64,000 nucleotides of DNA from Sipunculus nudus (lineage: Eukaryota > Annelida > Sipuncula > Golfingiida > Sipunculidae): positions 67,810,926 to 67,874,925 of the forward strand of contig CM049309.1 of the NCBI GenBank assembly GCA_026874595.1, written 5' to 3'. Shown here piece after piece: positions 3,850 to 64,000 of the stretch. The notes below the pieces were generated by a model. The model had not been told where the DNA came from, did no database searches, and saw only the letters and a program-made list of their open reading frames with translations. Position 1 is the stretch's first letter; each line of letters opens with the position of its first letter. Made by a program: the position numbers and the translations under genes.

Positions 3850-4260
3850 CTTTTTCATGCAATTAAGCTATATATCTATAATTTTAGAGTTAACATCCTC
3901 CCCCCCCCCCCCCCCCCGCATTTTTATCCCAATTTTTTAGGCTCACTCAGCTGCCCCCCCCCCCCCCCCCCCCCGAGCTCATGCATAACCGCAAAACCTT
4001 TTTATGGTGCATTTCTATCCGCCTATAAAAATGGGTTTTTAATTCAGATAAGCTGTATCTATCATTTTAGTGGGCCTAACCCCCTCCCCCCCCCCCCGCT
4101 TCTCCATTACAGTTGGAAATGGCTTTTTTTCTGCAGTTTTACCCCACTTTTTTAAGGCTAACTCAGCTGCTCCCCCCCCCCCCCCACCTTCTTCATATAT
4201 GCATAACTTTTTCATGGTACAAGTCCTGATCAGTGTAAAAAGTTTAAACCCATAAACCCT
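3850..4260. repeat. Tandem duplication with four poly-C tracts
   Basis: Two diverged copies of a unit of about 190 bp each contain: ataattttag...ctaac, a poly-C run, ccatttttat-like sequence, aatttttta/ctttttta, ggct(c/a)actcagctg, a second poly-C run, then atgcataac and a ttttatgg-like end. Poly-C runs are at about 3899-3917, 3954-3974, 4085-4097 and 4172-4187. The open frame at 4070-4255 is caused by the C tracts. Confidence 0.75.
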
Positions 4261-13130: not shown

Positions 13131-13780
13131 TAATAATAACGGGCAGGCAGGCAAGTGTCAGTGAATTAGCTGCCGTTTTCAAACTGCTTCCCCACACAAC
13201 AGCGCCATGTGCGGTGCCATGCTTGGCCATATGCTGGTGGCCAGCTGGCGTGCCTCCTGTACATGCAGTATTTATTCACAGTCTCTCTTATGCCCAGCGC
13301 TTCCCCCAATCATGACCCGTTTTATGTTGCTGGGCTTTGTTTTACCAATAACACGGTTTTCAGCCGGCAGCCTGTCTCCAAATTCTATAGTGCAGGTGAT
13401 GATCAGTCCGCGCCTTTTAGACGCAGGTGCGAGCTGCTGAGACTAAATAGTAAATTTCATTTATTCATGCTAGCTCTCGTCTGCAGTCTGTACGGCCAGC
13501 TGGCTGGGCCCACGAACAGACCAAACCCATAGGAGTAGACTGTTTAAATTTTTAAAGCAGAGCTTTCGGCTGCCGCGCTTTTCTAAGCGCGTGTGCTCCG
13601 GGCAGATGGCCACGCACATGGCTACTGCATTGGCGATGCACGTGCACGCATGCACACTTGGGGCCGATCTAGCCCTAGGCCATCGCTGACTTTGCTAAAT
13701 CCCTAATAACCATCTAAGATCCCACAAGGACGGACAAGTCGCTCACTCCATATAAAATACCCCAATATGGCCTACGCCCT
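13130..13780. promoter_or_regulatory. GC-rich island, candidate regulatory element
   Basis: CpG-rich unique sequence with two overlapping plus-strand frames (13207-13440 and 13209-13532) and a minus frame. None has a domain, and all three lack a plausible gene context. Inferred to be regulatory because its composition matches the other islands. Confidence 0.3.
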
Positions 13781-15735: not shown

Positions 15736-16202
15736 CTGCAAGGAGGAGACAAAATCATAGTAATACCAAGTATTGAAAACCTGACCATGTAATATGAGAA
15801 ATGAATGAAAAAGTGAATATCTGCCCAAGTAGCCATTCCCCTTAACGCTCCTTAAATTTATGGATGACAGTATGAAAAACATCAAAGTACTTTAAAATAT
15901 AACCCCAATATGCTTTCTGTATCTGAACATGCATTAACTCATTATAAAGGAATATGCATTATTTTTTAAGAACAAAAAGTTAAGAACACCGAAGGGCATA
16001 GAAATGAGGTTTTCGAGTGCTGCATGCACTTTAACCCATGAAAGTACATAATTTAAAACTTTACTTATTCAATAAGAAACAATTGATAATTGACACTATC
16101 GTGAAATTCCAATTCGATAGACTTATTTAATCATCTGCACGAGCACTCGTCACATTATTAGCAGTTTGTAGTCCTACATAATCACAGGTAACAACTACTT
16201 AC
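15736..16202 (-). other. ID intron 2, within the 3' UTR
   Basis: This predicted intron of 467 bp lies between donor GTAAGTAG and acceptor CTCCTTGCAG. It starts 22 nt after the stop codon, inside the roughly 50-nt limit that normally avoids nonsense-mediated decay, as expected for a functional 3'-UTR intron. Its sequence is AT-rich with no other feature. Confidence 0.6.
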
Positions 16203-16224
16203 CAGACTTTAATTAGCGGAGTCC

Positions 16225-16287
16225 TCAGTACGATGGGGGTCTTGATGCACACTCTTCCGCCAACGTCAACTTTTCCAAGTGACTGAT
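16225..16287 (-). CDS. id2-like (ID family): ID-family protein, coding exon 2 (C-terminal tail and stop)
   Basis: The predicted acceptor is a pyrimidine-rich stretch ending GTTGTTACAG, with the exon starting at 16287. In the phase set by exon 1 it reads 20 codons, beginning ISHLEKLTLAEEC and ending RPPSY, then TGA at 16225-16227, giving a 129-residue protein. Human ID2 also has a coding intron after its LQ-ending segment followed by about 18 residues, so the length and join position fit the family. The exon runs 22 nt past the stop to a consensus donor, CTG|GTAAGTAG, with its last base at 16203. The tail itself is not recognised. A second frame is open across the exon but does not join to exon 1 in phase. 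Transcript evidence is lacking, so this is a strong prediction only. Confidence 0.75.
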   Translation of the reverse strand: MSHLEKLTLAEECASRPPSY

Positions 16288-18001
16288 CTGTAACAACGTG
16301 AAAAAGATACTTAAGTATTTGTAAGGAAATCTAAGATTCCAGGAAGTTGAAAGCTAAAAGAAAACACGCCGCGGCAATTGGCGAGTCAGCAAACTTAACG
16401 CGAAGCACAACGCTTTATCAGCACACTTCACTTTACAAGGAGAGTCTTCCCCTTTTCTTTAAGAGAAAGCCTCAAAGTGGAAGGAATGCAACACGTGAGA
16501 GGAAGGGGATGTACAATATGTTGGGGGGTCATGTGGATGTGGACAAGGTGTCTTTATTGTTATATCAGGCCCTCCATATGGGGCGACTCTGGGATCACTG
16601 TGGTATGACACTTCGTGCACCTGTGTTGACTTCATGGCGCCAGCATGTCTGGCCCGTCGTGGGAACCGCACTCGGCCGTGTTCGGGCCGTGTTCGGGCAC
16701 GCTCGGAGCGGCGCCGGCTGCCCATTAAATATATCAAGTACAGATTGTGATAACTGTGCACTTGACCCGGCAGCTATTCAGCATTCACAAATGTAATTTG
16801 AGGCCAACCTCGATCAGGCGCTGATAACTCACCCCCCCCCCCCCCCCCCCCCCGGCCACCTGCATCGGAATTTGCCCAACCTATCAACCTGACAACTGAT
16901 ACAGTGGGACGACAAGTGATGCTCTAGCAGTCACTGTACATGTCCAACCAGTCTTACAATGACTCTTAGTTCTGCTCTGGGTAATAAATTACAGTGACAA
17001 AATTATGTGACAGCGTCAGCCAGCCTGGTCCGCAATGTGTAAAACCACACAGCAACACGTCTGACAAGTTGACAATTAACTGGGGACCATTTTCAAAACA
17101 GCGAAAACATGCGCAACCTCACACACGCCAGTCTTTTCTGCACAACAAACAAGTTCTTCACTTGAGAGATATCTACTCCAATATTGCTACAACAACTTCT
17201 TGTAAAATACCTCGATTATTATATATACCTTAACATTTCGTTCCATGTGTTTTACTGTATGTTTGGAATACGCAATGCCAAAAGTAACAGTTAATAGCTG
17301 CGAGCCATGGGCATCTATGAATCAATAATAAACCCATACACATTCGGGGTATAGGTCGCCAATACTACAGGCTACAGCCCAGACCCTTGCTTTACTATAA
17401 ACATTGCCTCGGCAACCCTGGCCGGTCAACTTTGGATGTATGGATCTATTAACATTGGCGGCGCCAGATCTAAAGTCCGTGGCATCCCTAAAGCATGTTT
17501 GGACTTGAGAGCCGAGCAGAAAATCGATGCTTGCGACAAGCGAAGCCCATGTCTATTTGTGATGTGCATATTTTATGGTCATCAGCCGAGCCCTTGCTGT
17601 GCCTTCCGCTGGTGGTCTTGTCACCCCGCGACACTTGCACCCATCACAAATCTATGCGACTTAAAACAGCGACATGTGGTTATTTATACACTCGAAAGCT
17701 CATACAGTATCGACCACGGGTACATATTGAAAACGAAGCCCCCTCACCAGTCACTAAAAACCACAGCTCGTAAAATACGTACACTTAGAACCACAGTTGC
17801 CATGAAGGAACCATTAAAAAGATTCAGCCCGTCACAACAGCCATGTCGCCATCGTATTCCAGGAAATTTCTGGGGACCGGGTTTGAAGATAAAAAATTCC
17901 AAAAATAACACGAAACAATCCCATTATTATCAAAAAAATTAAAAACCCACAATGGCTTGTCACATTTTATATATTCTGTATGCAAAATATCCTGTATTTA
18001 C
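16288..18001 (-). other. ID intron 1
   Basis: This 1,714-bp intron has GTAAATA at the donor and TTACAG at the acceptor. It contains a GC-rich block at about 16480-16800 with BMP- and Notch-type motifs (separate entry), a 23-bp poly-C run at about 16832-16854, and AT-rich filler. Long plus-strand open frames at 16347-16796 and 17436-17942 show no recognisable domain and are taken as chance. Retention of the intron would give a shorter protein with a different tail of about 12 residues, comparable to intron-retaining ID1 isoforms. Confidence 0.7.
16480..16800. promoter_or_regulatory. Candidate BMP/Notch enhancer in ID intron 1
   Basis: This GC-rich block inside an AT-rich intron contains TGGCGCC-N5-GTCT at 16635-16650. 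That is the full bipartite Smad1/5-Smad4 arrangement known from vertebrate ID, BAMBI and SMAD6/7 elements. A CGTGGGAA Su(H)/CSL site lies at 16658-16665, a second GGCGCC at 16710-16715, a CACGTG E-box near 16490 and a CACCTG E-box near 16616. ID genes are classical direct BMP targets, and Drosophila emc responds to Notch. Motifs are seen; enhancer activity is inferred. Confidence 0.55.
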
Positions 18002-18328
18002 CTGTTGAAGAAAGTGCTGCATGTTGAGATGCGTGTTTTCTCCCAGCGGCCTCCTCTCGCCGAAGGTGGTCTTTTGGCTTGGTGACTGGACGGTGGGATG
18101 GAATTGAAGGGTTACTTCCAAGTCCAATATATAGTCTATAACATGCTGAAGAAACTGCACTTTGCTGACTTTTCTATCTTGTGGTATCGTTGGTACGAGT
18201 TCCTTTAACCTGGTAAAACACGCAGCCATTTCGTTATCGCCGGCATCTTTGGCCTTGACTATCCTGCCTTCGCTAGAACCGATGGCAAATTCGTTGGTTC
18301 TGCGAGATGAGATCGCTGTGGCTTTCAT
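18002..18328 (-). CDS. id2-like (ID family): ID-family helix-loop-helix protein, coding exon 1
   Basis: This exon encodes 109 residues of an inhibitor of DNA binding, a nuclear HLH protein that dimerises with E-protein bHLH factors and keeps them off DNA. The HLH spans about residues 34-74 and contains [19 protein letters not shown] and [11 protein letters not shown], the diagnostic ID signature. The stretch before it (20-33) lacks the clustered basic residues of DNA-binding bHLH proteins. After the HLH, RRPLGEN (92-98) is an RxxLG destruction-box-like motif. The ATG has A at -3 and an in-frame TAG four codons upstream, so the start is secure; the MKA opening matches vertebrate ID2. The exon ends after LQQ at CAACAG|GTAAATA (intron G at 18001), phase 0. 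Reading on into the intron adds about 12 residues and a stop at 17960. Family certain; ID2 orthology rather than emc or ID in general is inference. Confidence 0.95.
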
Positions 18329-18700: not shown

Positions 18701-19300
18701 GAAGCTGATTAACATGGACCTGCCATATACCGTTGTCTGTGCGTATCCGTATACAAATATAAAGCTCTGACTGTACTATACAAGGTAAAAAGGCTATAAC
18801 AGTGAGGTTTGGTTTGACCAACCGGGCTGCAGGTGCCCCCGGTAATATTTCCCACAGACATAGTTATTTGGATAGTGCACACATGGGCGACATAATAGCA
18901 ATCCGCTTTGACAAGTCATTAGAGTGACAAGAGCTGGCCCACAGCTGAGCGCGACTCACTGGCGCCATCCATGTAACGTCACCTATTCAAAGTATATGTA
19001 TATACCATTGACTCGGCGCCAGTATGGCGGTCACCAAGGCAACACTACTGTCAATCAAGGGTGACTTCAAAAGGGCCGCCCAAAGGTGACTGATAAATTG
19101 CATTCACAAGCGACACCTCGAGTTTGTTGATACTTCACACTCGCACACCTGTGAATTTGCATGAAGCAGATTTGTGGGTGCAAGTATTAAACACTGACTG
19201 ATATACATCATCCCTTGGTCTGCTATGGGAAAATAAATACGAGCTCGCATTCCGGGATGAGAGTACAGGTTACCGCAAATGACGCATTGAATACTGCAGT
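18700..19300 (-). promoter_or_regulatory. ID upstream regulatory region
   Basis: This is GC-richer unique sequence upstream of the promoter. It holds a Su(H)/CSL site (TTCCCACA, 18849-18856, TGTGGGAA on the minus strand) overlapping a Smad-type CAGACA (18854-18859). It also has two GGCGCC palindromes near 18964 and 19014, an ACGTCA half-CRE near 18977, and CAGCTG/CAGGTG/CACCTG E-boxes. Such sites are expected for a gene controlled by BMP, Notch and bHLH factors. Function is inferred from motifs only. Confidence 0.45.
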
Positions 19301-38104: not shown

Positions 38105-40415
38105 AATGTCATTACCAAAAGACCGAGCGAGTGGTCAAGAGAACGATTACTCTCTGTCCGTCCGGCCGTCCTGTTGGCCGTTAACAGGGCAAAAATCGTA
38201 ACCATGCCCTTGACCTCGAATCTTCTAGCTTGAAATCCGGAGAGGTTCATAAAAAATCTCCCTGGACACCTGAAGTTAGGTCACTGCGACCTATATTCTC
38301 TGGGTTATGGGGCCTGTTTGTAGACCCAAGAATAATTAAAAATATGATGTTACGGAACCTAATATAAACAGATCACGTATACGTGATGAACACAAATTCT
38401 GTAACGATGATAGAAAAAATCAGATTCTGTAACACTAGGCAGCGTGGAATGTCTAGGGGAATGAATAAAGAAATCAGTGTTTTTTTGTTAACAAATAACT
38501 ATAATTTATTCTTAAAACAACCCTTACAATACAATACACTTAATCAATTCAATTATATACAGTAAAACAGCGGTATAGCAACAAGTCAATACAATCACAC
38601 AGAAAATAATGTGCACAGTACCTGGATACCAACACCGTCACCACGATAAGTTCTTTAAATGTATACTCTCGGAGAATGACAGTCCAGTGGAAAGTTCTTG
38701 CAACAACCCAGGAAGTAAACTGAAGTCCAAATGCATAAAATCCAGGAGAAATTCTTCGGAAGTCTATAATTGCCGCATTCGTCGGATAAAGCCCTAGAAA
38801 CTGACACACGCTTCTGCGTCCGCTGGAATCTGCTCTGCTCTCTCTCTCTCTCTGGTTCTAAAACACAGCCCCTTTATATACCTTCACACTTCAAGCCGAG
38901 AATTTTCCACTTCTCGAACAGTCTTAAGGATCCTACATAACACAGTAAACACGCGTTTAAGGAATTCTCTAGAAAACATCGCCGTGTGTATCCCTACATA
39001 CCAGGGTCATCACGTGACCTCGGCCAGGCGTGAAGACCCAAGGCTAACATGACAACGAGAGTTCAACCAGTACGGATCAAACATAGAATGCAACAAACGG
39101 CTAGGCGAGGGTGTCACAACAGGAGTATCCCCGCGTCACACAATAAAAAGAGCACCTGTAACAATGATACAAAAGCTCCAGTGTCTGAATAACTAATGCA
39201 TCAATTGACCTGATTCTTGCATTCATATGGATCATGGAGAATTCCATCAGTTCCAGAAGACCTGCTTCGCCACCTTTCTTTTTTATCTAATGTTCACCCA
39301 TTTGTTCTCTATTTTTAAGACCTTCAAATGAAGCAGTCTGGCAGAAAACAGGGCACAAACCGTAAGCGTTGGATCTTGAAACTTCAAACCATATACATCC
39401 AGGGAGGCATAAGGCAAAATTCTTTGAAAACCTTATATTATGTCATGGTGATCTATTTTCTGCGAGCTGTGGGCCGATAACATTATTTTGAGCACCCAGA
39501 GGGTCAGTTAGGGCATAATTTGTATCCATGTGGCCTATAGAATCTTCCAATGAGACATTCAGGGTGGTCCTGGGCAAATGACCCTGGAAACATGAAATCA
39601 GGTGACCGTGACCTATATTCTGCAAACTATATAGGGATAAAAGCTAGATTTCGGCAACCTGAAAGTCAGATGGGCTCAAATTGTATCCGTAAAGCCTAGA
39701 ATCCAGAAAAAGGTAATGATGACCTGATTTTGAGCACCCAGCCATTCAGACAGAGCTTACATTGTATCCATTAGACCTGGAAGCTTCTACTGTACTTCCA
39801 GGGAGGTCCTATAGGCAATTTTCTAGGAAACCTGAAACTAGGTCATAATGACCTAAATTCTGTGAGCAAACAAACATGATTCGGAGCACCCAGAGAGTCA
39901 AATTGTATCCGCTAGCCCTAGAATCTTCTTATGTGACGACCAGGGAGGTCCTTGACAATTTAAGTAGCCTTTGAATCCTGAAAGTAGGTCACTCTGACCA
40001 ATATTGTGTGAGCTACGCGCAGAAAAACAATGTTTTCTGTTGGAGCTAGAAATGTCAGTCTTAATGTAAAGGGGCTCATTGTAATGTCTTCTTGAACGTC
40101 TTAAATAAGGTCACTGTGAAACAGCATTATTTGAATACCTCATAAATCAGATGGACACAAGTCAAAGCAGTTTAACATAAAAAACTTCTAACTTAGCATC
40201 TAGGGAGTTCCTGGTAAAACCTTCTTGGAAACTAAAAAAAGTCACTGATAACTATTTTCTAAGGACTATTGGCCATAAAGCACTCTGGAAGTCAGTCCAC
40301 CTATTGTTCAAAGTTCCTTAACAAATATTTTTTCAAAAGATCATAACATCAATAGTTGATAAAATTTGCACAGTGTTTGAGATCAGCTGAGCGCAATGAC
40401 CCCTGCTCACTAAAT
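38105..40415 (+). mobile_element. Interspersed repeat region with ERE-like palindromes
   Basis: The 5' part (38110-38340) is the inverse of the 31.2-kb unit: ctctgtccgtccgg, ccgttaacagggcaaaaatcgtaacc, ttctagcttgaaatccgg, aatctccctggaca, aggtcactg.gacctatattct. The 3' part (about 39330-40300) has six or more diverged units with caccc.gagagtca, cattgtatccgtta..cctagaa, ccagggaggtcct, aaactaggtca. A perfect AGGTCA-TAA-TGACCT lies at 39840-39854. The far end, gatcagctgagcgcaatgacccctg, is the family terminus. Unrelated AT-rich and CpG sequence (about 38340-39300) may be an insertion. Confidence 0.6.
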
Positions 40416-47570: not shown

Positions 47571-49060
47571 ATTCAATAAGTATCAGGTTATTTAGTTACA
47601 ACTGTGTTGTGTTGCTGAAATTAATATAATTTACAATATATGTTTTCATGGAGCTTTGAAGAAAATATAACTGCGTATTTTCAAGGTCCATAAGGAAGAT
47701 GCAACCCCCGTATACCCCCCCCCCCCCCCCCTTATATCCTACCCTCCTCAGCATATTGCGTAACTCGACTTGCCTATTACGTCATCAACTGATCCGCTGC
47801 TAGAAGGAATCAGATATCAATGGTTCTATAGCGCCCATTAACAGCGTTAATTGTTGCATGATCTGACGTTGCCAGTGGCGTTCATTAATTACTTTTTGTG
47901 TAGAGAGTAATGCGGGTGTATGACTGCATACTCCAGTACACCGCATGTAAACTCATGTATATTCATATCTCTGTACGAAACAATCGGTTTTAATTTATTA
48001 GTAAATGCAAAACTCTATATGTAAAGTGCCATCATTTTTTTATATTTTTTTCGGGGGGGGGGGGGGAGGAAGGCGGTTACGGAAAGCTTAATCAATTTGT
48101 ACGTGCACCATCAAGTTGGGCCGAATTAAAAAGGCGCCCTCTTAAAAGAATCAATTCTAATTATACTACACACGTATGCCACGTACACTCGTGTATACCG
48201 TTTTGTGTGCGTGTGTTTTTTTTTTTTTTTTGGGGGGGGGGGGGGGAGGGGGGATATAATCCTTATCCCCGACGCACCTATATATGCGCTGCACATTTTA
48301 TATGCATGCAATTGACGAAAGCATAATATAACTATATACGAGTATAAAATTTAATCACATCATGACAGCTTAAATAACCTTTAGATATTTTGCCATAAAT
48401 ATATATTTAAAAGGATGTAAGCTGAATAGAAACTTCAAAATGTGACGAACTTCCTATTTGCGAAGAATCTCGTTTCCTTCAACTGACCACACCTTTCCGC
48501 CAACCATTACACCTTTCCCAGTTATAGTACAATGAACAGGAGTACATTTTTCTATACATGCAGAATGATGTATACATGTAATGTTTTATGTTATTAATAC
48601 GATACTTTTTTTTTGTCTCTCTCGATATCTTAAAATTCTAATTTCTTTATATAAACTGAGTTTGAAGAAAATAAGATAAACTGTAAAAAGTTTATTGTGC
48701 TTCTCTCTCCCCCCCCCCCCCTTCTGTCCCTTTCGCCTCGTTTCAGCACAGCACTCATTAAATGCTGGCCGGTTCATTTGGTGGAAAAATAAATGCATGT
48801 GATATACTTATATAACGAATACCAGATAACAGCTATACTTAAAATACAACACGTTCATTGCCGTAAAAAGGTTAATATAACGGTATTTATGTATTTTCTG
48901 CAAGGTTCAGATGATATTTCACCACTTATCGAAACAATTGTTTATAGGTGTGCGTCTCAGATCATTCGTATATGAAATTTGTAACCCTTTTAAGTAGCAG
49001 GTCCCCCGTAAATTTGGCGACGAAGAAAAGATAAAGTCAAGACGTTCGCCAACTGTAAAA
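47571..49060. other. AT-rich non-coding sequence with G/C tracts
   Basis: Poly-C at about 47716-47731, poly-G at 48054-48066, poly-T/poly-G at 48218-48246 and poly-C at 48710-48721. No gene recognised. Confidence 0.4.
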
Positions 49061-49069
49061 AGAAATGGC

Positions 49070-50010
49070 TTTCACATGCTGGGAGCTGGTTAGAGAAAGG
49101 GGCAGTCACTCTCACACACCTGTAGCACATACGGGCTTCAGCGGTATCCCGCCGGCGCCTAAAAGGAAATAAATACTTATAGGGATATATATGTAAAGAG
49201 CTTTGCCGTATATATGTAAGTACAGGGGCCGGCATGATTGTGCCGTACGCTCGCGGGTCTGGAGTTGGTGCCGCGATGTCTGCGCCGGACAATAACATCG
49301 TGCCGGCGGTGGGGCGGTGCGAGGGCCTATCTATTTTCGAGTGGTATCATTGTATATTGCTAGGTACCTCAAAAGGGTTCCCACAATACAGGTGCGCTAC
49401 GCAAATCTGCGGCGACAATAAGGACTAATACCGGTGCTTTCACGGGCCGCTTCGCTCACTGGCCACGAGTGAGCCACTTACTGCAGAGGTATGCGCCCGA
49501 TAACTCAGGTGCGAGCCCAGGTGTGCCGCAGACATACTGTCGCCGTCCAGTTTACACAAGAACTCGAGTGTAAACACGGACGTCTTTACATACCTATACA
49601 TTAAGCGCTTTGCGGCCGAGGCGCCACAATTACACACCGCCTCTGACAGCGAGGGGGCTGGCCCATTGGCGTTCCACCATCAAACCACCAGACAGGTTTA
49701 CCGCAATACACCTATTGTCAAGCCGTTTATTTCATTAATTTGGTTTCTAACTGTGGCGACAGCACGCTAGAGCCCCCTCTGATGGAATTCAAACAAACTT
49801 TGGATTGGTTCAGCCCGCTACTCCACAGATCGAGTCAAATTACATCGCTTTTGTGGCCTAAAATCAAACATTGACGACCCCTTGGTGTCTAGAGTGCGCA
49901 CATAGTACGAAAGGGGGCGCCCTTTCCTAGAAGCGCTCTCGGTCTTATGACCGTGGGAACATCTCCGACGAGCGCACACGTGCAGTCGACCAGTTTTATA
50001 CCTGTACCTT
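49070..50010. promoter_or_regulatory. Largest CpG-rich island in the window
   Basis: About 900 bp of unique CpG-rich sequence with four GGCGCC palindromes (near 49153, 49620 and 49919 among them) and Su(H)/CSL sites TTCCCACA (49378-49385) and CGTGGGAA (49952-49959). Open frames on both strands (for example 49234-49428 plus, 49440-49637 minus) have no domain. It could be a strong enhancer or a promoter of a gene not otherwise visible. Confidence 0.4.
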
Positions 50011-58315: not shown

Positions 58316-58394
58316 TTCGCTTTCTGCAAATCTCATTAAACTCGCAGATTATATTCTCTAAATAAAAATGCCAAGAACCTATCCGTGTATAACT

Positions 58395-59290
58395 GAATAT
58401 TTGTGAAAAAGCAAGTAAGAGAATAGATGTAATGAGATCACTTGTGTATAAACTAGATAGGAATGCTTTGGAAGTTTTGTATCTCACTTTTAATAGGCCT
58501 GTCTTTGAATTTGCATGTGAACTGTGGGATGGGTGCAATGATGCTCAAGTGCGTCAAATTGAATCAGTTCAACTGAGCACAGCGAGAGTAGTGACTGGTG
58601 CAATTAGAGGTACAAGCCACAATTTAATTTTCAAAGAAACAGCATGGCAACTGCTTAGTGAGAGACGGAATATTAAAAAGCTTATCTTGTTCTATAAAAT
58701 GATCAATGGGCTGGCACCACTGTATATGTGCGACTTATTAACTGATGATGTCGGAAGCAATGGGTATATGAATTGCGTAACAGGTATAATTTGCGTCCGC
58801 CAGCAGCTCTTACGATTGTACGGCAAAACAGTTTTCTTTTATCAACGACATGTCTGTGGAATTCTCTAGACCAAATTTCAAGGAACAGCCCATCCGTCTT
58901 AATCTTCAGGAAAATTTAGAAAGAAATGTGCAGAAGCGCGTATTACAGTCAGTACATGGGTAACCGACAGGCACAAATAAATCATACGAGAATGCGTTCT
59001 TGGTCACAGCTCCCTGAATGGGCATTTATTTAAAAAATTTTTTTTCCAGAAAATCAACTTTGCTCTTGTGGTCTTGCGGTAGAGACCCCTGGGCACTATT
59101 TTTTTGTATTGTCCCCTTTATGCGAATAAGAAAGAAGAACTCTTCTCAAAGGTATCAGTACAGTACAGAGGGAAACATATTTTATTACACAGACAAAAAG
59201 TGTGTAACAAAGAATTGTGAACTTTTTAATATTATTCAGCAGTTCATAGTGCAACTAAAATTTTTAAAGAAATCTGAATTTTGGAAATAT
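58395..59290 (+). pseudogene. LINE (non-LTR retrotransposon) ORF2 3' end, broken
   Basis: The reading frame from about 58395 (KASKRIDVMRSLVYKLDR, then LYLTFNRPVFEFACELWDGC) matches the region after the reverse-transcriptase core in many animal LINEs. It continues through ARVVTGA and LILFYKMINGLAPLYM. After a frameshift near 58760-58830, LWNSLD and then HTRMRSW, CSCGLA.ETPGH and CPLY-like words mark the C-terminal zinc-knuckle segment up to about 59130. At least two frameshifts and several stops are present, and everything upstream of the RT C-terminus is missing, so this is a 5'-truncated dead copy. Confidence 0.85.
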
Positions 59291-59697: not shown

Positions 59698-60405
59698 ATA
59701 ATATTGTGAAGGGTGGCCTGTACCAGAATAAGAATTCTGTTATAAGCAGGGCTCTCTTCCAAGATATACAAGATATTATAAACAGTTGGAACATGATAAT
59801 AAAAATACATAAAAGTACATGTACAATGCGAAATATAAAAGACATAATGAGACTGTAAAATCATTACAAAGGAATGATAATATCATAAAATTAATAAAAG
59901 AGACGGTACTAACAGCGGTAAGAGCAACGATTACATCTAAAACAATTTCGTGCTGTGATAAGATTATGACATCATTGTAAAATCGGAGAAGTACGAACGT
60001 GATAATTTTTTAAAATGCTGCAAATTAGAAGCAAACTTAATGTGTCGAGGAAGGGAGTTCCATAGAGTACTGCCTGCATAAAAAGAGGTAGCCTTGAAGG
60101 CTTCAATACGCGGTTTCGGAAGGATACAGTTTTTATTTTCGGTTAACCGCGTCGAATAATTATGAATGCCCTTCACCATATGAAAATTCTTACATAAATA
60201 TGAAGGGGCTAAATCATTTATGCATTTATAGGTTAAAATAGATAGGAGGTACAAATATCGCTGTTCAATTGTCATTAAGCCTATTTCTTTCACTAAATCT
60301 AAACTTCTTTGTGTTGGGTCGTAATTTTTTGTTATTATCCTAGCCGCACGACACTGCATTTGTTGGATTGCGGCACGGAATGTGCTGGGACAGCTGCTCA
60401 AGGGA
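59663..60405 (-). mobile_element. 5'-truncated CR1/Jockey-like LINE copy
   Basis: The minus frame 60405-59964 encodes the C-terminal portion of a different LINE ORF2: FRAAIQQMQCRAARIITKNY, EQRYLYLLSILTYKCINDLAP.YL, HNYSTR, and SFYAGSTLWNSLPRHIK. The frame is open to its stop at 59964. A 3' UTR of about 260 bp follows and ends in (AATA)n at 59668-59698, the microsatellite tail typical of CR1-type elements. The 5' end is cut near 60405. The open frame and clean tail suggest a fairly recent insertion. It lies tail to tail with the older LINE at 58395-59290. Confidence 0.85.
59964..60401 (-). pseudogene. LINE ORF2 C-terminal coding remnant
   Basis: About 145 codons without stop or frameshift, covering only the region after the reverse-transcriptase core. 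The catalytic RT and endonuclease domains are absent because the copy is truncated, so it cannot move by itself. No start codon belongs to it. Confidence 0.85.
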
Positions 60406-62570
60406 GGTATTCATACATTTTCACTTGTGCCTCTTTGTTTGTTGTTTTTTTAGTCTGCTACATGCATAGTTCCCGCGGAAACTATATACAATACGTTTGG
60501 TGTAGAGGGTGTTGTTGTCTTAAATGTATGCGCTCTACCGTTGGCCATTCTATTCTTTAAATATTAAAATATAACGCTTTTTTTTCTTCACCGAATTCTT
60601 TTACGAAAGTTTCCCACAACACATGAAAGAAATGGTACCTTGGACTACATATTCCGAAAAAAATTGATTATTATAATGGGTCAAAGCGCACCTTCTGTCA
60701 GGTTATCTCATATCTTATAGATTTAATTTAAATATATGGAGAAGCCCTTCATTTCTTTCAAATATCAAGGTTTTCATTTCCTGTTCCTGTTCACATATAT
60801 ATTATAACACTTAAGGAAGTTCCTGTCACATGAAAGCATCCCGCAAGGTATGCTTTCAGACAAAGCACAATATCAGAATGCATTGGTTAAACCAGGTATG
60901 TTATATCTTGTCGCATTTCAACATTATACCGGTACTGCGTTTATCTCACTTCCCATGCATATATATAGCGCTGTCCAAACTAAAAATTAAACCCGTTCGA
61001 AAAGGAATTATTATCCGTTTCATCAAGTGGTGCCAAGCGAGATGTTTACAAAGAAAATTAACTTCAAAATAACAATAAGAATAAAATTGAAACCCTTGTG
61101 ATATATAAAATCAGGTACTTCAGCTATAAATTTAAAAGGAAACCAACACCATAACGTACAAATTAGCTATATAAAACAAATCATTTGATATATGAGAAAA
61201 CAATAATTCTGTAACGATAAATTGACTGAAAAAAACAAGGCCAAGGGCTCCGGCCGCACCCATAAAACTCATGGACATTCCCTAAAAAAATCCATTGACA
61301 TTTCCTGATTGGATGTGTTTTTTTGTATTTTTTATAACTTAAATATGAAAAAAAATACACGTTCAAACAACAGGATCATATCCAACGGTATTTTTGTGGG
61401 TCATAGAAACCATTTGGGGCTATGTATATATCGTGATTATCCCCAACCCTACTGCCTGGTTGAGCAATGGGATGGCTTTTTGCCTGATTATGGTTATCAT
61501 GTTAATGACCTGATAGAGTTAGGTTCAGGTTTTAAAGACAAACTATGTTATGTTGAATGGTAAACTACTAGGATGCTTGATATTGAACTAATAGTGACTT
61601 GCATCGAATTCGAAGGGGACTTCGAGATTACATGAGATTACATGTATATGTATTGATTGTGATACTGATGGGTTATTTTATTTGTTTTTTGTTTGTTTTT
61701 TTTTTTTGTTTTTTTTTTTGTGGTTGATAAATCATTCCAAGGAAACAAAATTCGTTCTTTTCGAAGATTGATCCATTGTGTTGTATGGTGGCTAGGTGGA
61801 AAGCCCACCCAAAGGAAACATTAAATCCATCTGTTACCAAGTAATTACCTTTTCTGTGGAATTTATATAATTTCTGGCGAGCTCTGAGTACATATTAATA
61901 CACTGTAGATAAATTCTGTTAAGAAAAGTTTTTTACTCGTAACGCCTCTTTGATAGATAAATGAGCTTGCTTATCTACAAGCTGTTAGTAAACATGACAC
62001 AAGCGCGAATGTTGGCAAAGAGAAATACCATGTAACCGAAGGTGGTTAGTTGCATACATGTGGAAGGTGAAAGGTCACTAATTGTAAAAATATCCTTTGG
62101 TAAACACTGGTTCGTTTGATTTGCTGTCTATAATGAATGAGTTTGGATCATTTTTGCTCCCCCCATGCTATAAACACGTAAACATAAAAAAACTAACAGC
62201 CTGTTTGCGGTGGGATCGGCGTATTCCGGTCTGTTTTGATCAAAAGGTTCAAGTGATTATTTGTAATTAATAGACGTCGAATATCGGAATAGACTCCTTT
62301 TAAACAAAGCTTGTAATTGTCTGGTGGGTGCAGCTCAACCTCACTGGACAGTACCGAGGTGGCAGAGATTGCACATACTCTTACACGAGTTGTATTCCCT
62401 GATAAAAAGACAAAGGATCAATGTAAATAAACTAAAATGAAATTTCGAAAAAAAAAAAATAAATTGTCATCACCAAGTATAATGAATACCACAGACTTAC
62501 TCTCAAACACAAGTGTGGAATCAAATCATTAATATAAATGCAGTGTTCAGTTTTTTCAATATATGGAGTT
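60406..62570. other. AT-rich non-coding sequence
   Basis: A plus frame at 61309-61563 (84 codons, e.g. QWDGFLPDYGYHVNDL) is protein-like at its end but unrecognised and has no context. A TTCCCACA word lies at 60611-60618. Poly-T tracts lie near 61698-61720. Confidence 0.35.
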
Positions 62571-63060: not shown

Positions 63061-63338
63061 ACTTTCAAAGGAAGCACGTGCATACGTTTCTGTTTATATT
63101 TACGATACCACGTCACGGATATTACACCGCAAAATAGATCAAGAGGTTTATCAATATTTAAAATATGTTTAATGGACAAATACCTTTTGTTGGTTATAAC
63201 TGGAATCGGTTTTGGCTAAGGTTACAGCATACTCTATATTTGCTCCATTTACTTAATTATTTGAAAGTTACGCTTTTCAGCGAAATGGCTCAATTTCAGG
63301 CCATAAGCGTGTTGCGCGCACGAACGTGCATGAGACCT

Positions 63339-64000
63339 ATCCTGGGAATTCATAGACAGATCTTATAAGCGGAGAATGAATCTATCCTGGAACTCCATAG
63401 GCAGATTTCATGTGTGGAGAATGAATCTATCCTGGAACTCCATAGGCAGATCTCATGTATGGAGAATGAATCTATCCTGGAACTCCATAGACAGATCTCA
63501 TGTGTGGAGAATGAATCTATCCTGGACCTTCATAGACAGATCTCATGTGTGGAGAATGAATCTATCCTGGGAATTCATAGACAGATCTTATAAGCGGAGA
63601 ATGAATCTATCCTGGAACTCCATAGACAGATCTCATGTGTGGGGAATGAATCTATCCTGGAACTCCATAGACAGATCTCATGTGTGGAGAATGAATCTAT
63701 CCTGGAACTCCATAGGCAGATCTCATGTGTGGAGAATGAATCTATCCTGGACCTGCATAAACATATCTCATGTGTGGAGAATGAATCTATCCTGGACCTG
63801 CATAGACATATCTCATGTGTGGAGAATGAATCTATCCTGGACCTGTATAGACATATCTCATGTGTGGAGAATGAATCTATCCTGGAACTCCATAGGCAGA
63901 TCTCATGTGTGGAGAATGAATCTATCCTGGACCTGCATAGACATATCTCATGTGTGGAGAATGAATCTATCCTGGACCTTCATAGACAGATCTCATGTGT
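63339..64000. repeat. 45-bp minisatellite array, continuing past the window
   Basis: About 14 copies of a 45-bp unit (ggagaatgaatctatcctgg, then aactccataggcagatctca, then tgtgt). Variants include ctccat/ctgcat/cttcat, ggcaga/gacata and, in the first and sixth units, gggaattcatagacagatcttataagc. The spacing of these two marked units, five units apart, suggests a higher-order repeat. Because 45 is a multiple of 3, one frame on each strand stays open except in the marked units, which contain in-frame stops. Confidence 0.95.

Follow-up and report, generated by a model that had tools for sequence, protein, structure and literature searches.

Results

We analysed a window of 64,000 nucleotides from Sipunculus nudus (GCA_026874595.1, contig CM049309.1, positions 67,810,926 to 67,874,925 of the forward strand), and all positions given below are those of the window. 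An open frame on its minus strand (17960-18328) contains an HLH domain (Pfam 6.5e-12), and among solved structures the best match of this frame was the HLH of ID-1 (PDB, 1.1e-14). When a GTAAAT donor (from 18001) is spliced to a TTACAG acceptor (to 16288), the product is a protein of 129 residues that ends in ISHLEKLTLAEECASRPPSY; the model of an ID gene in Table 1 is based on splice signals. Past the ID stop codon there is a GTAAGT donor 22 bases on and a TTGCAG acceptor near 15736, which suggests that the gene has an intron within its 3' untranslated region. The vertebrate ID2 and ID3 genes have an arrangement similar to this model. For a gene of animal origin it is unsurprising that we found no relatives of ID in collections of prokaryote and viral contigs. 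Of three TTCCNGGAA palindromes in the window, which we take to be STAT-type sites, two lie inside ID intron 1 (at 16337 and 17857).

Table 1 Coordinates of the ID gene and of the Smad-type, CSL-type and neighbouring motifs in the window.
Feature	Positions	Strand	Remark
ID exon 1, coding part	18002..18328	-	109 codons, HLH domain; donor GTAAAT
ID intron 1	16288..18001	-	from splice signals
ID exon 2	16203..16287	-	last 20 codons and stop (16227-16225); acceptor TTACAG, donor GTAAGT
Activating-element match GGCGCCATGAAGTCA	16627..16641	-	opposite face of the 16636 palindrome
ID-type Smad1/5-Smad4 composite GGCGCC-AGCAT-GTCTG	16636..16651	+	candidate; also fits fly BMP-SE GRCGNC-N5-GTCT
CSL/Su(H)-type site CGTGGGAA	16658..16665	+	monomer
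Motif AACCGCA, presumably Runx-like	16664..16670	+	common motif, 17 in window
11-base tandem repeat GGCCGTGTTCG	16674..16698	+	with GGCCG (5GC Smad) motifs
Second GGCGCC palindrome of the block	16710..16715	+	without N5 partner
CSL-type site TGTGGGAA	18849..18856	-	between ID start codon and the two upstream activating-element matches
Activating-element match GGCGCCAGTGAGTCG	18952..18966	-	upstream of ID start codon
Activating-element match GGCGCCAGTATGGCG	19015..19029	+	upstream of ID start codon
CSL-type site TGTGGGAA	49378..49385	-	about 155 bases from distal composite
Second silencer-type composite GGCGACAGTATGTCTG	49529..49544	-	31 kb upstream of ID
CSL-type site CGTGGGAA	49952..49959	+	about 420 bases from distal composite

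Intron 1 contains, about 350 bases ahead of exon 2, a candidate Smad composite which consists of a GGCGCC palindrome (16636-16641, preceded by T at 16635), the linker AGCAT (16642-16646) and GTCT (16647-16650), which the following G extends to GTCTG. The letters and their spacing are directly observed: GGCGCC, five bases and GTCTG stand in the same orientation as in the ID-type BMP response element, and the same stretch fits GRCGNC-N5-GTCT, the Drosophila-type BMP silencer element. The host gene is an ID gene, as judged by its HLH domain, the match among solved structures and the gene model, and the ID-type element is thus found at an ID gene.

An earlier sequence-only reading had drawn attention to TGGCGCC-N5-GTCT at 16635-16650 with CGTGGGAA at 16658-16665, and we found exactly these letters there. 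That reading had put the GGCGCC palindromes of the window at about 19, where we counted 20, and it was right that only one of them (16636) is flanked at a distance of exactly five bases by an outward-facing GTCT (AGAC when on the left side). The block was also correctly described as GC-rich (58% GC at 16600-16760), but the intron is not AT-rich, its 45% GC exceeding that of most 1-kb bins of the window.

We rejected an origin of the block from a repeat: the intron has a single further match within the window, of 27 bases at 85% (E = 0.026), which pairs a run of C beyond the core (16825-16851) with 4159-4185. A coding origin was likewise rejected, the two ORFs across the block being without a Pfam match. 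No RNA families were found at the gathering threshold, and the window contained no full p53 site.

Further Smad-type composites are directly observed at the locus. The Drosophila-type activating pattern GGCGCCA-N4-GNCV had three matches in the window, two on the minus strand (16627 and 18952) and one on the plus strand (19015); they are all at the ID locus, with 0.06-0.13 expected per window. The first of these shares the 16636 palindrome from the other side, so that this palindrome is the only one of the 20 to be flanked on either side by a Smad4-type GNC at a distance of five bases (0.06 expected) and presents a silencer-type face on one side and an activating-type face on the other. Matches to the silencer-type pattern numbered two in the window, at 16636 and at 49530 minus (0.12-0.27 expected).

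When the sides of all palindromes were compared, GNC at five bases was found on 4 of 10 sides at the ID locus vs 0 of 30 elsewhere (Fisher: P = 0.0023), although such locus-level patterns (the ID locus, the three blocks) were picked after looking and come from a single window. Four of 190 offsets, including that of GNC at five bases, were equally or more extreme in this contrast between locus and elsewhere, and over the whole window the 4 of 40 sides represent no clear enrichment over the 2.2 expected. Counted in spans of 200 bases, 5GC Smad motifs were most densely clustered at 16618-16817 (n = 8), 49422-49621 (n = 6) and 18875-19074 (n = 5), and these are the three blocks which carry Smad composites, an agreement that is partly circular because each GGCGCC is counted twice. 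In a panel of 30 patterns, two of them amounting to one site, the only patterns of at least 15 bits with matches at 16.0-19.5 kb were the three overlapping BMP patterns and STAT.

Some side observations concern these elements. A 12-base extension, GGCGMCAGYATG, is common to 16636, 19015 and 49533 (minus), with 3 seen vs 0-0.02 expected; it was found post hoc and is left out of the evidence. A relaxed composite, GCCGGC-AGCCT-GTCT, lies at 13363-13377, downstream of the ID gene, where the sequence is richer in GC. The region 49000-50000 is a GC- and CpG-rich island which holds the composite at 49529-49544 with, no more than 450 bases away, two CSL sites; the ORFs tested there contained no recognised protein families.

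A CSL-type site (YGTGRGAA) is present beside the intronic composite, near which a paired CSL arrangement was sought by eye and none was seen. Each of the three composite blocks has a CSL site no more than 200 bp away. One CSL site lies within 50 bases of a composite (circular shift: P = 0.055) and the count is still one within 100 bases (P = 0.094), rising to three within 200 bases, which was unmatched by any circular shift, and to four within 450 bases (P = 0.0029), at distances which were not preset and in GC islands which may share both motif types. Four sites within 450 bases were also reached by 0.3% of 595 same-letter permuted motifs, and by 0.9% of the 111 permuted motifs with 8 to 14 hits.

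Dinucleotide shuffling gave 0.01 composites expected per window (1 of 100 shuffles), under a procedure which under-predicts GGCGCC (3.4 expected vs 20 seen); first- and second-order models gave zero composites in 3 million simulated bases each; and a third-order Markov model gave 13.8 GGCGCC and 0.064 composites expected. Given the window's 20 palindromes, the probability of at least one N5-GTCT partner was 0.10-0.13; it was 0.025-0.033 when only the 5 palindromes of the ID locus (16.0-19.5 kb) were considered. In a control of GGCGCC-GTCT spacings from 0 to 39 over the window, single matches occurred at 2, 4, 5 and 20, while the silencer-type pattern had 2 matches at N5 vs 3 at N9 and the activating pattern 3 at N4 vs 4 at N8; the published spacings are not outstanding within the window itself. 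Taken by itself the intronic composite is suggestive, exceeding chance by only a modest margin when the abundance of palindromes is taken into account, and its weight derives from the gene which houses it.

Under a chance origin, a palindrome-rich and GC-rich intron block would have yielded one N5-GTCT partner and an unrelated CSL match. The odds per window given its palindromes and the flat spacing control are in keeping with this, as are the frequency of CSL-type sites (11 in the window vs 6.6 expected) and the closeness of one of them to a composite, which besides its P value by circular shift was equalled within 50 bases by 3.9% of the 595 permuted motifs. However, the composite sits in the one gene family where such composites are canonical, the odds at the ID locus are lower, and 3 of 3 activating-element matches are at that locus; we consider chance unlikely, if not negligible.

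Elsewhere in the window we observed three perfect inverted AGGTCA-N3-TGACCT palindromes (2253-2267, 2566-2580 and 39840-39854; 0.02 expected), presumably of the nuclear-receptor ERE type. They sit in a diverged repeat, pieces of which also match at about 30.5-31.0, 38.2 and 39.4-40.1 kb, and a dispersed repeat therefore seems to be their carrier. A 45-base tandem satellite of about 15 copies (63337-64000) runs to the end of the window. The ORFs at 58393-58869 and 59964-60410 resemble what we take to be the end of LINE-type reverse transcriptases; neither had a Pfam match, and the former also had none among solved structures.

Discussion

Vertebrate ID genes are textbook BMP targets. Judging from its letters and its host gene, the 16-base core in intron 1 is probably a BMP-Smad input to ID, acting as a response element like those already known. 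Upon BMP receptor activation, we infer that a Smad1/5-Smad4 complex would form on the core, with the R-Smad on GGCGCC and Smad4 on GTCTG; the five-base linker would fix the arrangement of the Smads, and the direction of the effect would be a rise in ID transcription. The core may act together with the 5GC cluster that surrounds it and with the two Smad composites that precede the start codon. Notch input at the ID locus via the neighbouring CSL site is plausible, and cooperation of Notch and BMP has been described at HEY genes (PMC4363482).

The sequence-only reading had proposed a compact BMP-plus-Notch enhancer of deep ancestry. Its BMP part is upheld by the exact ID-type composite and the further Smad-type composites at the locus, whereas the proposal as a whole is weakened by the modest chance odds, the P of 0.055 for the CSL site, the failure to see a paired CSL site by eye and the fit to a silencer-type element. 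A deep ancestry of the composite is a hypothesis, as is the Notch input.

An enhancer is not the sole possible outcome, since the sequence also matches the Schnurri-recruiting silencer element of Drosophila. The main functional rival to BMP activation of ID is a silencer of the Schnurri type: the GTCT end would recruit Smads and a Schnurri protein, and BMP would lower ID in some tissues. The fit to GRCGNC-N5-GTCT is exact, and in flies Mad, Medea and Schnurri bind such an element for repression (PMC7669266). However, vertebrate homologues reportedly lack the fingers 6-8 through which fly Schnurri interacts with Smads (PMC10853822), and at the ID genes of vertebrates elements of this kind are activating. 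We regard silencing of this type as improbable, and activation is the better guess for the core because the host gene is an ID gene.

It is very improbable that the palindrome instead serves another GC-box factor or an overlapping YY1-like ATGGCG site, since, although CATGGCGCC overlaps a ATGGCGNC core (which, like ATGGCG, we take to be the consensus), the full YY1 and E2F patterns as used had 0 matches each in the window and the N5 partner is left unexplained.

A wider reading, to which we give only a slim chance, is that one BMP-plus-Notch code would occur three times at the ID locus (31 kb upstream, on the promoter side and in the intron), always as a Smad composite having a CSL site no more than 200 bases away; the two-faced palindrome could switch between activation and repression, and the logic would be ancestral to bilaterians.

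If BMP activation through the intronic core is true, an exact ID-type composite in an invertebrate ID gene would mean that a distant lineage shares the cis-regulatory code as well as the protein pathway. The composite is a short sequence which is open to reporter testing, and silencer-type and activating-type faces on one palindrome would provide a system for studying what decides between BMP activation and repression.

Comparison with known BMP response elements

In Drosophila the activating element is GGCGCCA(N4)GNCV and the silencer element GRCGNC(N5)GNCT (PMC7669266), the latter being also given as GRCGNC(N)5GTCT (PMC12633792). The silencer element has exact matches at 16636 and 49530, and its silencing in flies needs Schnurri; the activating element has its three matches at the ID locus, one of them on the shared palindrome, and the fly linker is reportedly more flexible. 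In the sea anemone Nematostella the BRE, not necessarily as an N5 composite, is enriched under pSMAD1/5 peaks, in a description which mentions no Id gene among the targets (PMC10849676). Promoter regions bound by Smads often contain clusters of 5GC Smad motifs (PMC5727232). A limited literature search found no precedent for the ID-type composite in non-fly invertebrate ID genes, which is weak evidence.

Among vertebrates, an extended likeness to the mouse Id1 BRE reporter (a common GACGGGC beside GCTGGCGCC) was rejected: by our own reading the stretch lies at a fusion junction, and the likeness was dropped because the reporter fuses two separate promoter fragments (PMC3439458), similarity across the junction meaning nothing. 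The Xenopus id3 BRE, GACGCC-N5-GTCTG (PMC3439458), resembles the composite at 16636 in that a Smad site of an Id gene is followed, after five bases, by GTCTG, but the letters of its GC half-site differ.

The closest comparison is with human ID genes, in which the ID-type motif GGCGCC-N5-GTCTG is found in SMAD1-bound regions of ID1, ID2 and ID3, with the linkers TGGCT, AGAGA and AGGCT, and all three are BMP-responsive in reporters (PMC11907993); this agrees with what the sequence-only reading had said of ID genes. The same paper reports that inversion of GTCTG abolishes the response, that G is enriched at linker position 2 and/or 3, and that such composites account for < 1% of SMAD1 binding and occur chiefly in intergenic enhancers and less frequently in introns (PMC11907993). 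In contrast to most of these, the composite at 16636 is intronic, and its linker AGCAT differs from that of human ID3 by two bases, with G at position 2 and C at position 3, where the stronger ID1 and ID3 reporters have G. Its orientation is the one which retains the BMP response in human reporters, and all fixed letters, the spacing, the orientation and the gene family are the same as in the composites of human ID1, ID2 and ID3.
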